From an uncultured Pseudoflavonifractor sp. (GTDB lineage: Bacteria; Bacillota; Clostridia; Oscillospirales; Oscillospiraceae), in the NCBI GenBank assembly GCA_947644625.1, contig CANRZY010000004.1, positions 1-48,180 on the forward strand: a stretch of DNA of 48,180 nucleotides, read 5' to 3'. Positions 13,052-16,714 of this stretch are shown one piece after another; the stretch's first letter is position 1; every line of letters begins with the position of its first letter. The notes below the pieces were generated by a model, which worked only from the letters and a program-made list of their open reading frames with translations, had not been told where the DNA came from and searched no databases. A program made the translations under genes and the position numbers.

Positions 13052-13468
13052 ATGCTGATCGTTGTCATTGACGGGCAGGGTGGAGGGCTGGGTGCAGCCC
13101 TTGTAGCCCGTCTGAAAACCCGGCTAGGGAACAAGGCTCAGCTCCGGGTGGTGGGGATCAACGCCCTGGCTACCTCCGCCATGCTGAAGTCAGGGGCAGA
13201 CAAGGCCGCCACCGGAGAAAACGCCGTCTGCCATAACGCCGCCCAGGCAGACCTGATCCTGGGCCCCATCGGGCTTCTCTCCACCAATGCCCTGATGGGC
13301 GAGGTAAGCCCCGCCATAGCCGCCGCCGTCTCCTCCGCCAAGGCCCGCCGGATCCTGGTACCCGTCTCCAGCGGCTGCGGTATCCTGGTGGCGGGAGCTA
13401 CAGGCTGGAAGCTGGAGGAGCTGTTGGATGAAGCGGTGGAGCTGGCGGTAAAGGAGATAGGCCCATGA
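13052..13468 (+). CDS. DUF3842 family protein
   Basis: A 138-residue protein that begins MLIVVIDGQGGGLGAAL, a Rossmann-like glycine-rich start typical of DUF3842, a clostridial family of unknown function. No membrane segment or catalytic motif is obvious; HNAAQADLILGPIGLLSTNA is a conserved-looking stretch. GGAGG precedes the ATG. Its last four bases overlap the start of the P-loop kinase gene, so the two are translationally coupled and probably work together. Confidence 0.8.
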   Translation: MLIVVIDGQGGGLGAALVARLKTRLGNKAQLRVVGINALATSAMLKSGADKAATGENAVCHNAAQADLILGPIGLLSTNALMGEVSPAIAAAVSSAKARRILVPVSSGCGILVAGATGWKLEELLDEAVELAVKEIGP

Positions 13469-14562
13469 ATGTTTTGAAAAATATCCTTACCCTCCATGCC
13501 AAACGGTATCCTTCCATGGAGCTCCGGGACTATGTAAAGCTCCTCTACCAAAGCGAATTTGGACCCGGCCATCTGGTGGAGGCAGAAGACGCCCTAGAGG
13601 CGCTGCAAAGGGAATTTGCCCAAGCCAAAGAGGAAGGTTATACCCCTGAATATGCCGTGGAGGCCATCGGGGACGGGCTGTGCCGCGTCCACCTGGATCC
13701 CCGGTTCATTACCGGGGAGGACCTTCCCCTCCTCGCCCGCTGCTTTGCCCACTCGGCCTGCCCCAGAGGAAGCGAAGCGGGACTGTGGAAAAAATTAGGG
13801 CTTTTGTCCGGGCTGGCCTGGGCCGGAACGCTTCCTCTGGAGCCTCAGGAGCTGGACCTGTTTCTTGCCCTCTACGAAAGCGGGGGCTGTCCCCCTATCC
13901 ACCACAGCGACGGTTACCGGGAGCTTTACCGTCCCCATTACCGGGTGATGGACCGGGACCTCTCCCTGTACGCTCCCGCCCTCCGGGCCGTCGACGCTCT
14001 TTTGCGGAACACGCAGGGCCCTGTCATTGTAGCGGTGGACGGGCGCTGCGCCAGCGGTAAGACCACCTTTGCCCAAAAAGCGGAAGCACTCTTTGACGAA
14101 TGCAACGTATTTCACATGGACGACTTTTTCCTGCCACCGGAAAAGCGGACGCAGGAACGACTTTCCACCCCCGGCGGTAATGTGGACTACGAGCGTTCGG
14201 CCACCGAGCTTTTTGAGCCCCTTCGCCGGGAGGAAGCGGTTGCCCACCGCCGCTTTGACTGCTCCACCATGACCATGGGGGAACCCCAGGGGATCCCCTT
14301 CCGGCGGCTCAATATCGTGGAGGGAAGCTATGCCCTTCACCCTGTTCTGTCCGGTTACTCCCAACTGCGGATCTTCTTTACCTGTTCCCCAGAGGTCCAG
14401 CTTGCCCGTCTCTCCCGCCGGGAAACTCCCGAAAGCCTGGAAAGGTTCCGGAAACGGTGGATCCCCATGGAGGAGAATTACTTTAGATCCCTTTCCATCC
14501 AGGACCGGTGTGATATCGTGGTGGACACTTCCCCCCTGTCCTCTTTGGAGCCAGAAAAATAA
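13465..14562 (+). CDS. Uridine-kinase-like P-loop phosphotransferase with extra N-terminal domain
   Basis: A 365-residue protein of two parts. Residues 1 to about 175 form a domain I do not recognise, with SEFGPGHLVE and PIHHSDGYRELYRPHYRVM as striking stretches. Residues 185-350 are a uridine-kinase/PRK-like P-loop kinase: VDGRCASGKTTFA (Walker A), VFHMDDFFLP (substrate Asp pair) and NIVEGSYALHP. The true substrate is unknown, most likely a nucleoside or another small alcohol. The ATG overlaps the DUF3842 stop, and a clean terminator follows. Confidence 0.75.
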   Translation: MNVLKNILTLHAKRYPSMELRDYVKLLYQSEFGPGHLVEAEDALEALQREFAQAKEEGYTPEYAVEAIGDGLCRVHLDPRFITGEDLPLLARCFAHSACPRGSEAGLWKKLGLLSGLAWAGTLPLEPQELDLFLALYESGGCPPIHHSDGYRELYRPHYRVMDRDLSLYAPALRAVDALLRNTQGPVIVAVDGRCASGKTTFAQKAEALFDECNVFHMDDFFLPPEKRTQERLSTPGGNVDYERSATELFEPLRREEAVAHRRFDCSTMTMGEPQGIPFRRLNIVEGSYALHPVLSGYSQLRIFFTCSPEVQLARLSRRETPESLERFRKRWIPMEENYFRSLSIQDRCDIVVDTSPLSSLEPEK

Positions 14563-14704: not shown

Positions 14705-16006
14705 ATGTCTCAGATCCTCATTTGCCTTTCCATCGCCCTGACGGGCGGGCTTCTCATGTCCCGGCCGGCCAAAAGGCTGGGGCTTCCCGCCGTCACCGCC
14801 TATCTCATTACCGGACTCCTGCTGGGCCCCTTCTGTCTGGGCGCTTTGAGCATCCCCGGCCTGGGTTTCTCCAGCCTGGACCAGGTGGTGGAATTCAATA
14901 TCATTTCCCAGGCGGCCCTTGGCTTCATCGCCTTTTCCATCGGAGACGAGTTCCGGCTGGAGCAGCTGCGGAGCATGGGCTCCCGGGTCATTATCGTGGG
15001 CATTGCCCAGGCGGTGGTCACCACCGCCGTGGTGGATCTGGCTCTTATCGCCCTCCATTTTCTGAATCCCGCCCTTATCAGCCTGCCCTCCGCCATCACC
15101 CTGGGTGCCATTGCCGCCGCCACCGCCCCTGCCGCTACCTTGATGGTGGTCCGGCAGTATAAGGCGGATGGACCTTTGACCCATCTTTTGTTGATGGTGG
15201 TGGCCATTGACGACGCGGTGGGATTGGTGCTGTTCTCCGCCTCCTTCGGGGTGGCCTCCGCCATGGAAAGCGGCGTTATCAGTGTGGTCAGCGTCCTGGT
15301 GGAGCCTGTGATCGAAATCGTTCTCTCCCTGATCCTGGGCGGTTTCGCCGGATTTTTCCTCCACTGCCTGGAGCAGTTTTTCCATTCCAGGAGCAAGCGG
15401 CGCAGCCTTTCCATCGGCTTTGTACTGCTGACGGTAGGCCTTTCTATGATGGAATTTGAAATCGGCGGCGTCCACATCGGCTTCAGCCTGCTGCTCACCT
15501 GCATGATGGCGGGCACCGTTTTCTGCAATATCTGCCGCACCTCTCAGGAGATCATGGAGCGGATCGACCACTGGACCGCACCCCTGAGTATCCTGTTCTT
15601 TGTTCTGTCCGGCGCTGAACTGGATCTGGGGGTGCTGTCCCAGCCCTTGGTACTGCTGGTGGGCGTTGTCTACATCCTGTTTCGCTCCCTGGGCAAGTTT
15701 ACCGGCTCCTATCTCAGCTGCGCCGCTACCGGGTGCGACGCCAAGATCAAGAAGCATTTGGGCATTACCCTTCTCCCCCAAGCGGGCGTGGCCCTGGGGA
15801 TGGCCCTTACCGCTCAGAACCTGATGGACGGAGCCATGGTACGCAATGTGGTACTGTTCTCCGTGCTGGTCTACGAGCTGGTCGGACCTACCCTGACCAA
15901 GCGTTCCCTCACGGCCGCCGGAGAGATCCGGCCAGAGGGAAAGACCTCCGCCCGGACCATGAACAAGGCCAAGGAGCCGGTGGAGCTGGGCACGGGAAAA
16001 TCTTGA
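14705..16006 (+). CDS. Cation:proton antiporter (CPA2 family)
   Basis: A 433-residue membrane protein with about twelve hydrophobic segments. It has features of CPA2 antiporters: LGLPAVTAYLITGLLLGP near the N-terminus, the discontinuous-helix region AAATAPAATLMVVRQYKA, and VAIDDAVGLVLFS with the paired acidic residues of the ion site. It exchanges sodium or potassium for protons at the cytoplasmic membrane; no TrkA-N/RCK domain is fused. The C-terminal 35 residues are hydrophilic. GAAGGAG precedes the ATG. The promoter of the next gene overlaps its stop codon. Confidence 0.88.
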   Translation: MSQILICLSIALTGGLLMSRPAKRLGLPAVTAYLITGLLLGPFCLGALSIPGLGFSSLDQVVEFNIISQAALGFIAFSIGDEFRLEQLRSMGSRVIIVGIAQAVVTTAVVDLALIALHFLNPALISLPSAITLGAIAAATAPAATLMVVRQYKADGPLTHLLLMVVAIDDAVGLVLFSASFGVASAMESGVISVVSVLVEPVIEIVLSLILGGFAGFFLHCLEQFFHSRSKRRSLSIGFVLLTVGLSMMEFEIGGVHIGFSLLLTCMMAGTVFCNICRTSQEIMERIDHWTAPLSILFFVLSGAELDLGVLSQPLVLLVGVVYILFRSLGKFTGSYLSCAATGCDAKIKKHLGITLLPQAGVALGMALTAQNLMDGAMVRNVVLFSVLVYELVGPTLTKRSLTAAGEIRPEGKTSARTMNKAKEPVELGTGKS

Positions 16007-16031
16007 CACCGTCCCCCTTTTTTGCTATCAT
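16003..16031 (+). promoter_or_regulatory. Promoter of the ECF S-component gene
   Basis: TTGACA (16003-16008, overlapping the antiporter TGA stop), 17-nt spacer, TATCAT (16026-16031). Confidence 0.7.
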
Positions 16032-16036
16032 TCTTT

Positions 16037-16148
16037 CAGCGAAACCGCCGTTACGAAAACGGCCCCGTCCCGTACAAAAATATGGAATGTCAATGCGCCG
16101 CGAAGGCTGGAGTCCCCATGAAGGGGACCGGCTTTCGCGGCGTTTTTT
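16037..16148 (+). promoter_or_regulatory. Attenuator leader, candidate orphan riboswitch
   Basis: About 60 nt after the start site, which includes a CCGTT/AACGG hairpin, are followed by a long hairpin (16096-16142, arms CGCCGCGAA and TTCGCGGCG around an AGTCCCC/GGGGAC core) and TTTTTT, all before the ribosome site of the ECF S-component gene. A terminator inside a 5 prime leader of a transporter gene is the usual layout of a riboswitch or attenuator. I do not match the aptamer part to a known class. Confidence 0.6.
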
Positions 16149-16168
16149 GACCGGAAGGAGTTTTTACA

Positions 16169-16714
16169 GTGGATCCCTACCGCACCAAAAAGCTTGTCCT
16201 GGCCGCCCTTTTTCTGGCGATCGGGGTGGTTCTGCCCACCGCTACCCACTCCATTCCCAATGCGGGAAGCGTACTTCTTCCTATGCACATTCCGGTCCTG
16301 CTGTGCGGCCTGACCTGCTCCTGGCAATATGGACTGCTGTGCGGCCTGCTCTCCCCTGCCCTGTCCAGCCTCATCACCGGAATGCCCCCTGCCGCCGTCC
16401 TCCCCGCCATGGTCTGCGAACTGGCTGCCTATGGCCTTCTCTCCGGTCTCTCCGCCCGGTTGGTCCACACGGGGACCCGTTTGACAGATCTCTACCTCCA
16501 GCTTATCTCCGCCATGCTCCTGGGCCGGGCGGTGTACGGCGCCATGAACGCCCTGGTGTTCCGGGCGGGGACCTATTCCATGGAGGTCTTTCTTACCGCC
16601 GCCTTTGTTACCGCCCTACCCGGCATTCTCCTCCAGCTGATCCTGCTCCCCTCTCTGGTGCTGGCGCTGGAGAAGGCCCGGATCCTGAAGGATCCCTACA
16701 GTGTTCCGGCATAA
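16169..16714 (+). CDS. ECF transporter S-component
   Basis: A 181-residue, six-segment membrane protein of the ECF S-component type. It starts with the family-like basic N-terminus followed by LVLAALFLAIGVVLPTATHS and has LLPMHIPVLLCGLTCSWQYG and SSLITGMPP, typical of vitamin-binding S-components. It would capture an unknown vitamin or precursor and dock on a shared EcfAAT energy module encoded elsewhere. The start is GTG (16169) with AAGGAG eight bases upstream. It is a single gene between an attenuator and a strong terminator, so expression probably responds to its ligand. Confidence 0.82.
   Translation: MDPYRTKKLVLAALFLAIGVVLPTATHSIPNAGSVLLPMHIPVLLCGLTCSWQYGLLCGLLSPALSSLITGMPPAAVLPAMVCELAAYGLLSGLSARLVHTGTRLTDLYLQLISAMLLGRAVYGAMNALVFRAGTYSMEVFLTAAFVTALPGILLQLILLPSLVLALEKARILKDPYSVPA

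Follow-up and report, generated by a model that had tools for sequence, protein, structure and literature searches.

The stretch of DNA analysed here (the window, 48,180 nucleotides from an uncultured Pseudoflavonifractor sp.) contains an ECF transporter S-component gene preceded by a structured leader. The genes and leader features on which the analysis bears are as follows.

13052 to 13468, + strand: DUF3842 protein, a recurrent neighbour
13465 to 14562, + strand: P-loop nucleoside-kinase-like protein, a recurrent neighbour of both S-component clades
16003 to 16031, + strand: leader promoter of sigma-70 type (TTGACA, 17 nt, TATCAT, extended −10)
16047 to 16063, + strand: P1 hairpin, GCCGTT-ACGAA-AACGGC, covarying helix 1 in both leader sets
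16064 to 16096, + strand: P1-P3 linker, of non-conserved sequence; place of P2 in many relatives, P2 being absent in the window
16095 to 16148, + strand: intrinsic terminator, with P3 lying within its 5′ arm
16097 to 16107, + strand: P3 hairpin, GCC-GCGAA-GGC, proposed antiterminator, covarying helix 2 in both leader sets, exclusive with the terminator
16113 to 16127, + strand: P4, apical hairpin of the terminator, TCCCC-ATGAA-GGGGA, with a loop of the same type as P1 and P3
16155 to 16160, + strand: ribosome-binding site AAGGAG, read from the sequence
16169 to 16714, + strand: ECF transporter S component, 181 aa, placed in clade A by the tree (PF12822, 58.6 bits for a cut-off of 30.7), predicted importer of the nickel-pincer nucleotide (NPN) or a derivative

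The gene upstream of the leader (14705-16006) encodes a CPA2-type cation/proton antiporter. It separates the kinase from the S component in the window; in relatives these two genes are usually adjacent or nearly so. An initial annotation had placed a promoter over the stop codon of the upstream gene, and such a promoter is present: its −35 box TTGACA (16003-16008) overlaps the TGA of the antiporter gene (16004-16006), its −10 box TATCAT occupies 16026-16031, and together they give 11 of 12 consensus matches. The long terminator announced ahead of the ribosome site was likewise recovered, with a 16-bp stem (16095-16110 paired to 16128-16143) and a run of six U at 16143-16148, followed by AAGGAG and by the GTG start codon of the S component at 16169. 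The loops of the three hairpins read ACGAA (P1), GCGAA (P3) and ATGAA (P4). The P3 stem is limited to 3 bp in the window's genus, and has 5 bp in most relatives. The predicted fold of the leader reached −58.8 kcal/mol, against −39.9 +/− 3.7 for shuffled sequences (z of −5.1, none of 200 shuffles being as good), a difference which is mostly due to the terminator.

None of the 4227 Rfam families matched the window at its gathering threshold. In a permissive search with the leader a miRNA model came first, with 25 bits out of 93, and nothing relevant was obtained with 13 related leaders. The leader thus matches no Rfam class, as first supposed. Other PF12822 S components of the family (L086-L089) are preceded by THF- and TPP-like riboswitches, recognised by eye. 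These resemble the present leader in being attenuators ahead of PF12822-type S genes, but their aptamers are different ones, unmatched by Rfam in the window, and they serve a different gene subfamily, which sets them in contrast to the orphan leader.

S-component relatives were then collected in 201 genomes of the window's family, and their leaders were read. Many of the S genes were internal to operons and had no leader; about 30 leaders showed a promoter followed by hairpins with ANGAA or NGAA loops. Over all leaders, taken at 260 nt each, 83 such hairpins were counted, for 18 expected from shuffles. Eighteen leaders were aligned on P1 (or P2) and P3 as hand-cut blocks, with an N inserted for a missing loop base and three linkers shortened; this alignment served only for model building and stem-pair counts. 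It had a covariation score of 0.736 (0.291 when shuffled, 0.11-0.14 when slid), with changes on both sides in 10 of 11 pairs. As the 18 training leaders had been picked for showing the hairpins, we tested sequences outside the training set. The covariation score of 50 held-out leaders was 0.603, against 0.221 for shuffled and at most 0.156 for slid alignments, with no shuffle out of 500 scoring as high and double changes again found in 10 of 11 pairs; this alignment was fitted to the covariance model, which favours the structure, while the size of the effect and the positions of the matches are independent of that fit.

In its complete form the leader has up to four hairpins arranged in two pairs, P1 (pentaloop) with P2 (tetraloop), then a linker, then P3 (pentaloop) with P4. 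The P1-P3 linker is about 20-50 nt long. The (A)NGAA loops and the pairing of P1 and P3 are conserved, and the sequences of stems and linker are not. The 60-nt segment with a small hairpin that had been singled out as a possible aptamer is therefore only partly borne out: the hairpin exists (16047-16063), but there is no conserved block of 60 nt. Conservation of that segment among orthologues had been set as a test; it holds for P1 and P3, in their loops and in their base pairing, and fails for the linker between them. Conservation of the leader as a whole is clear, as the same layout recurs with covariation in dozens of orthologous leaders, which makes it much more than a product of chance.

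A promoter with at least 9 of 12 matches was found within 95 nt upstream in 45 of 55 leaders of this RNA family, compared to 6.6% of shuffles. Of 54 leaders, 53 have a terminator stem that takes up one or the other arm of P3, and the two structures are therefore mutually exclusive. The arrangement of an attenuator is thus found, namely a promoter followed by a mutually exclusive antiterminator and intrinsic terminator ahead of a gene, and the leader almost certainly acts as a transcription attenuator. This agrees with the early proposal of a transcription-attenuating leader before an ECF S component. A few leaders (L034, L055, L265, L269) have no terminator; by reading, their ribosome site appears to be sequestered, with anti-Shine-Dalgarno bases in the P1-P3 linker.

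The promoter overlapping the antiporter stop codon and the terminator after it might have invited a plainer reading, in which the antiporter gene has an ordinary terminator, the leader after it is ordinary too, and the hairpins arose by chance. This reading deserves practically no credit: in many families the leader recurs, strongly covarying, behind upstream genes that are unrelated to each other; P3 forms part of the terminator in 53 of 54 cases; and the held-out covariation refutes it.

The covariance model built from the 18 leaders gave 59 held-out matches in Clostridia, of which 50 are directly upstream of NPN-linked genes; matches within coding genes were discarded as false (L110, L121, L132, L133, L263, L273, L274, L277, L375). 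The targets comprise two clades of S components (often with the P-loop kinase and DUF3842), larE-larB, larC and larBCE operons, and a CbiM-type Ni/Co transporter. Among the non-training matches of the window's family with E<0.003, 16 of 18 lie directly upstream of S (10), larE (5) or a small membrane protein (1) found elsewhere at the head of a larBCE operon. Of the 21 matches from seven other families of the order, 17 precede a target, which is an S gene of clade A in 4 cases, one of clade B in 9 and a lar gene in 4. The remainder of the class Clostridia gave 20 matches, of which 17 precede either an S gene of clade B (16) or CbiM (1). Strong matches were also found, with rare exceptions, 50-230 nt upstream of S in 80 named genomes retrieved by means of the S alignment, Pseudoflavonifractor sp. 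Marseille-P3106 being one of them.

The larE and larB targets are authentic, being equivalog matches, with larE scoring 222 bits on TIGR00268 (cut-off 150) and larB 277 on NF033503 (cut-off 175). In L282, larC is the direct target, and two operons have the order DUF3842-[leader]-membrane protein-larB-larC-larE. In leader-controlled NPN operons (L276, L271, L114, L389 and L390), larB comes after two small membrane proteins, one of which starts with MACF(L/A)VPA(A/T)EA and has no match in either Pfam or NCBIfam. The CbiM-type Ni/Co ECF transporter operon, with its partner genes, is behind the leader in one genome (L364/L381, G832:C19:310464-310540). In a single other case (L135/L187, G254:C45) the gene behind the leader encodes a secreted protein that has a 5′-nucleotidase C-terminal domain and LysM, which possibly performs a dephosphorylation step ahead of uptake.

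LarE, LarB and LarC build the nickel-pincer nucleotide, a rare cofactor that serves LarA racemases, from NaAD, which is used by LarB (PMC11796402). Since the leader is common to larE, larB and larC and to the CbiM-type transporter, the regulon appears to concern NPN, and we hold the link of the leader to NPN to be very probable. That one leader is shared by cofactor-building genes and a nickel/cobalt importer further suggests that the S-component transporter scavenges the nickel-pincer cofactor or a precursor. Relative to the known LarA/LarB/LarC/LarE system (PMC11796402, PMC7583248), larE, larB and larC are found here under the same leader in several genera; the difference lies in the many genomes with LarA where an S component stands in for LarBCE. 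Among 72 LarA-positive genomes, 25 had S and no LarC, 36 had LarC and no S, 4 had both and 7 neither (p = 4×10−9). With one genome per genus, a rough control for relatedness, the LarA-positive counts were 11, 23, 3 and 3 in the same order (p = 4×10−5). This near-complementary distribution of S and LarC suggests that S imports NPN or a derivative, and the simplest reading of the genomic association is that genomes devoid of LarBCE obtain their NPN through the S component. In addition, the S gene adjoins larC in G084 and G182, and larA in G012. The seven LarA-positive genomes with neither LarC nor S are G021, G057, G090, G134, G181, G186 and G189, five of which are less than 80% complete; G181, which is 94% complete, may use another route.

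The window's own genome (89% complete) was searched for LarC and LarA, and neither LarC nor a convincing LarA was found, the sole weak Lar_N match being a DUF362 protein. For the window, the NPN link consequently rests on relatives. Several nearly complete genomes with leader and S (among them G030, G055 and G320) also lack both LarA and LarC. About 15% of genomes with larBCE have no larA, and non-LarA NPN-binding proteins have been proposed from such larBCE-positive, larA-negative genomes (PMC11796402). Other users of NPN may therefore exist.

The AlphaFold (AF2) model of the S component matches ThiT, RibU and FolT at TM scores of 0.62-0.67; identity with FolT (TIGR04518) was rejected, with 20.6 for a cut-off of 60 bits. 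Its commonest neighbour is the nucleoside-kinase-like protein, present at 30 of 80 clade A loci and at most leader-bearing clade B loci. The kinase of the window is of the uridine-kinase/riboside-kinase type, and the frequent proximity of such a kinase to S would fit import of a nucleoside followed by re-phosphorylation. At many clade A loci (L003-L016, L287-L357) the S component has a class I methyltransferase, EcfT or both as its partner in place of the kinase, and kinase and methyltransferase look like alternatives. DUF3842 is encoded in nearly all leader-bearing genomes, and in many relatives it stands directly upstream of the leader, including at larBCE and larEB loci (L389, L390, L280). 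Its AF2 model has a Rossmann-like fold for which structure comparison returned no clear homologue (UbiX-like, TM about 0.5), and a partial search of the literature found no mention of it. DUF3842 may be a sensor, a regulatory protein or an NPN-binding protein.

Taken as a whole, we propose, with a probability of roughly 0.55, that the leader is the attenuator of an NPN regulon operated by a trans-acting RNA-binding protein, and that the S component is an NPN importer. Transcription would start at about 16038. By default the long hairpin 16095-16143 would fold and halt RNA polymerase at the U6 run. The factor would recognise the (A)NGAA loops, those of P1 and P3 and, where present, those of P2 and P4; once bound, it would keep P3 separate, thereby depriving the terminator of its 5′ arm and allowing the S-component gene to be read. 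Most likely this factor would be an RNA-binding protein of symmetric, dimeric build that acts under NPN shortage. NPN or a derivative such as the nucleoside would enter through the S component, and the neighbouring kinase would re-phosphorylate it. We infer from these arrangements that such a factor exists, what it senses, which way control runs and what S carries. The P1 and P3 loops share their variable base in 25 of 44 cases, for 14.9 expected (p = 0.0014), as might be the case for a single symmetric binder; common ancestry may also account for it. Kissing of the P1 and P3 loops was discarded, the variable base being identical instead of complementary.

What leads us to lean to protein-dependent antitermination is the direction of control. 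P3 must open for the terminator to form, and its loop and stem are conserved, so that the recognised state should be the read-through (ON) state. In a small-molecule switch NPN would thus induce the very genes that provide it, which would be strange, whereas a protein that bound the loops under NPN shortage would give normal feedback.

The alternative that survives best is a true riboswitch, in which the tandem (A)NGAA hairpins would bind NPN, a precursor such as P2TMN or NaAD, or a nickel complex, and thereby stabilise P3. The guanidine-II (mini-ykkC) riboswitch has two hairpins with identical loops and a variable linker, one of the hairpins being in the expression platform. Our leader shares this layout, as we read it, together with short loops and variable stems, and its loops and P3 are conserved; moreover, cofactor genes are common riboswitch targets, and no protein factor has been found so far. 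Guanidine-II identity itself was rejected: the loop is not ACGR (C, G and T all occur in second place), the Rfam model is unmatched, and the targets are not guanidine genes. Against a riboswitch in general, P3 is the ON structure in all terminator versions, so that the ligand would induce both its own synthesis and its own uptake, contrary to feedback; for an aptamer, the sequence beyond the loops shows very little conservation; and the Rfam search was negative. We consider a riboswitch rather unlikely, and the more specific view of a new class sensing NPN or a precursor and controlling synthesis, salvage (ECF S component and salvage kinase) and nickel uptake appears doubtful. A protein antiterminator accounts no less well for stems and a linker that vary, for identical loops that recur and for a bound state that is ON.

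A second possibility keeps the attenuator and changes the regulon, to one of nicotinate/NAD supply: S would import a nicotinate or nicotinamide riboside, the kinase would phosphorylate it, and the lar genes would be included because LarB uses NaAD. The riboside-kinase type of the kinase, the consumption of NaAD by LarB (PMC11796402) and the genomes with leader and S devoid of LarA and LarC speak for it. It leaves unexplained the replacement of LarC by S among LarA-positive genomes, the location of S beside larC and larA, and the leader ahead of CbiM, and we find it improbable.

An NPN regulon under a protein antiterminator recalls a known dual-hairpin family, the ANTAR-protein sites of the EutV, NasR and AmiR type, in which small tandem hairpins with conserved loop bases and variable stems are recognised, one of them overlaps a terminator arm, and the bound state is read-through (PMC3369931). 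ANTAR-domain proteins were found in 16 of 22 leader-bearing genomes. Nevertheless, ANTAR target RNAs have hexanucleotide loops with A at position 1 and G at position 4, and a linker of 5-12 nt (PMC3369931), whereas our leaders have loops of 4-5 nt (commonly ANGAA, GCGAA or NGAA, none of these a hexaloop with A1 and G4), a P1-P3 linker of about 20-50 nt, often four hairpins in two pairs, and NPN genes as targets; in addition, no ANTAR match was obtained in the leader-bearing genomes G061 (98% complete), G292 (97%) and G038 (94%). Identity with ANTAR target RNAs was rejected on the loop rule, and an ANTAR protein as the factor seems very improbable.

Our partial search of the literature found neither an NPN riboswitch or other RNA-level control of NPN, nor an NPN uptake system. 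Here, a single leader family across Clostridia connects the genes for NPN synthesis with two clades of orphan S components, a kinase, DUF3842 and an importer of nickel/cobalt. A large family of orphan transporters in gut bacteria thereby gains a specific candidate substrate, and DUF3842 may be one of the non-LarA proteins postulated earlier to bind NPN (PMC11796402). Cross-feeding of a nickel cofactor is also suggested.
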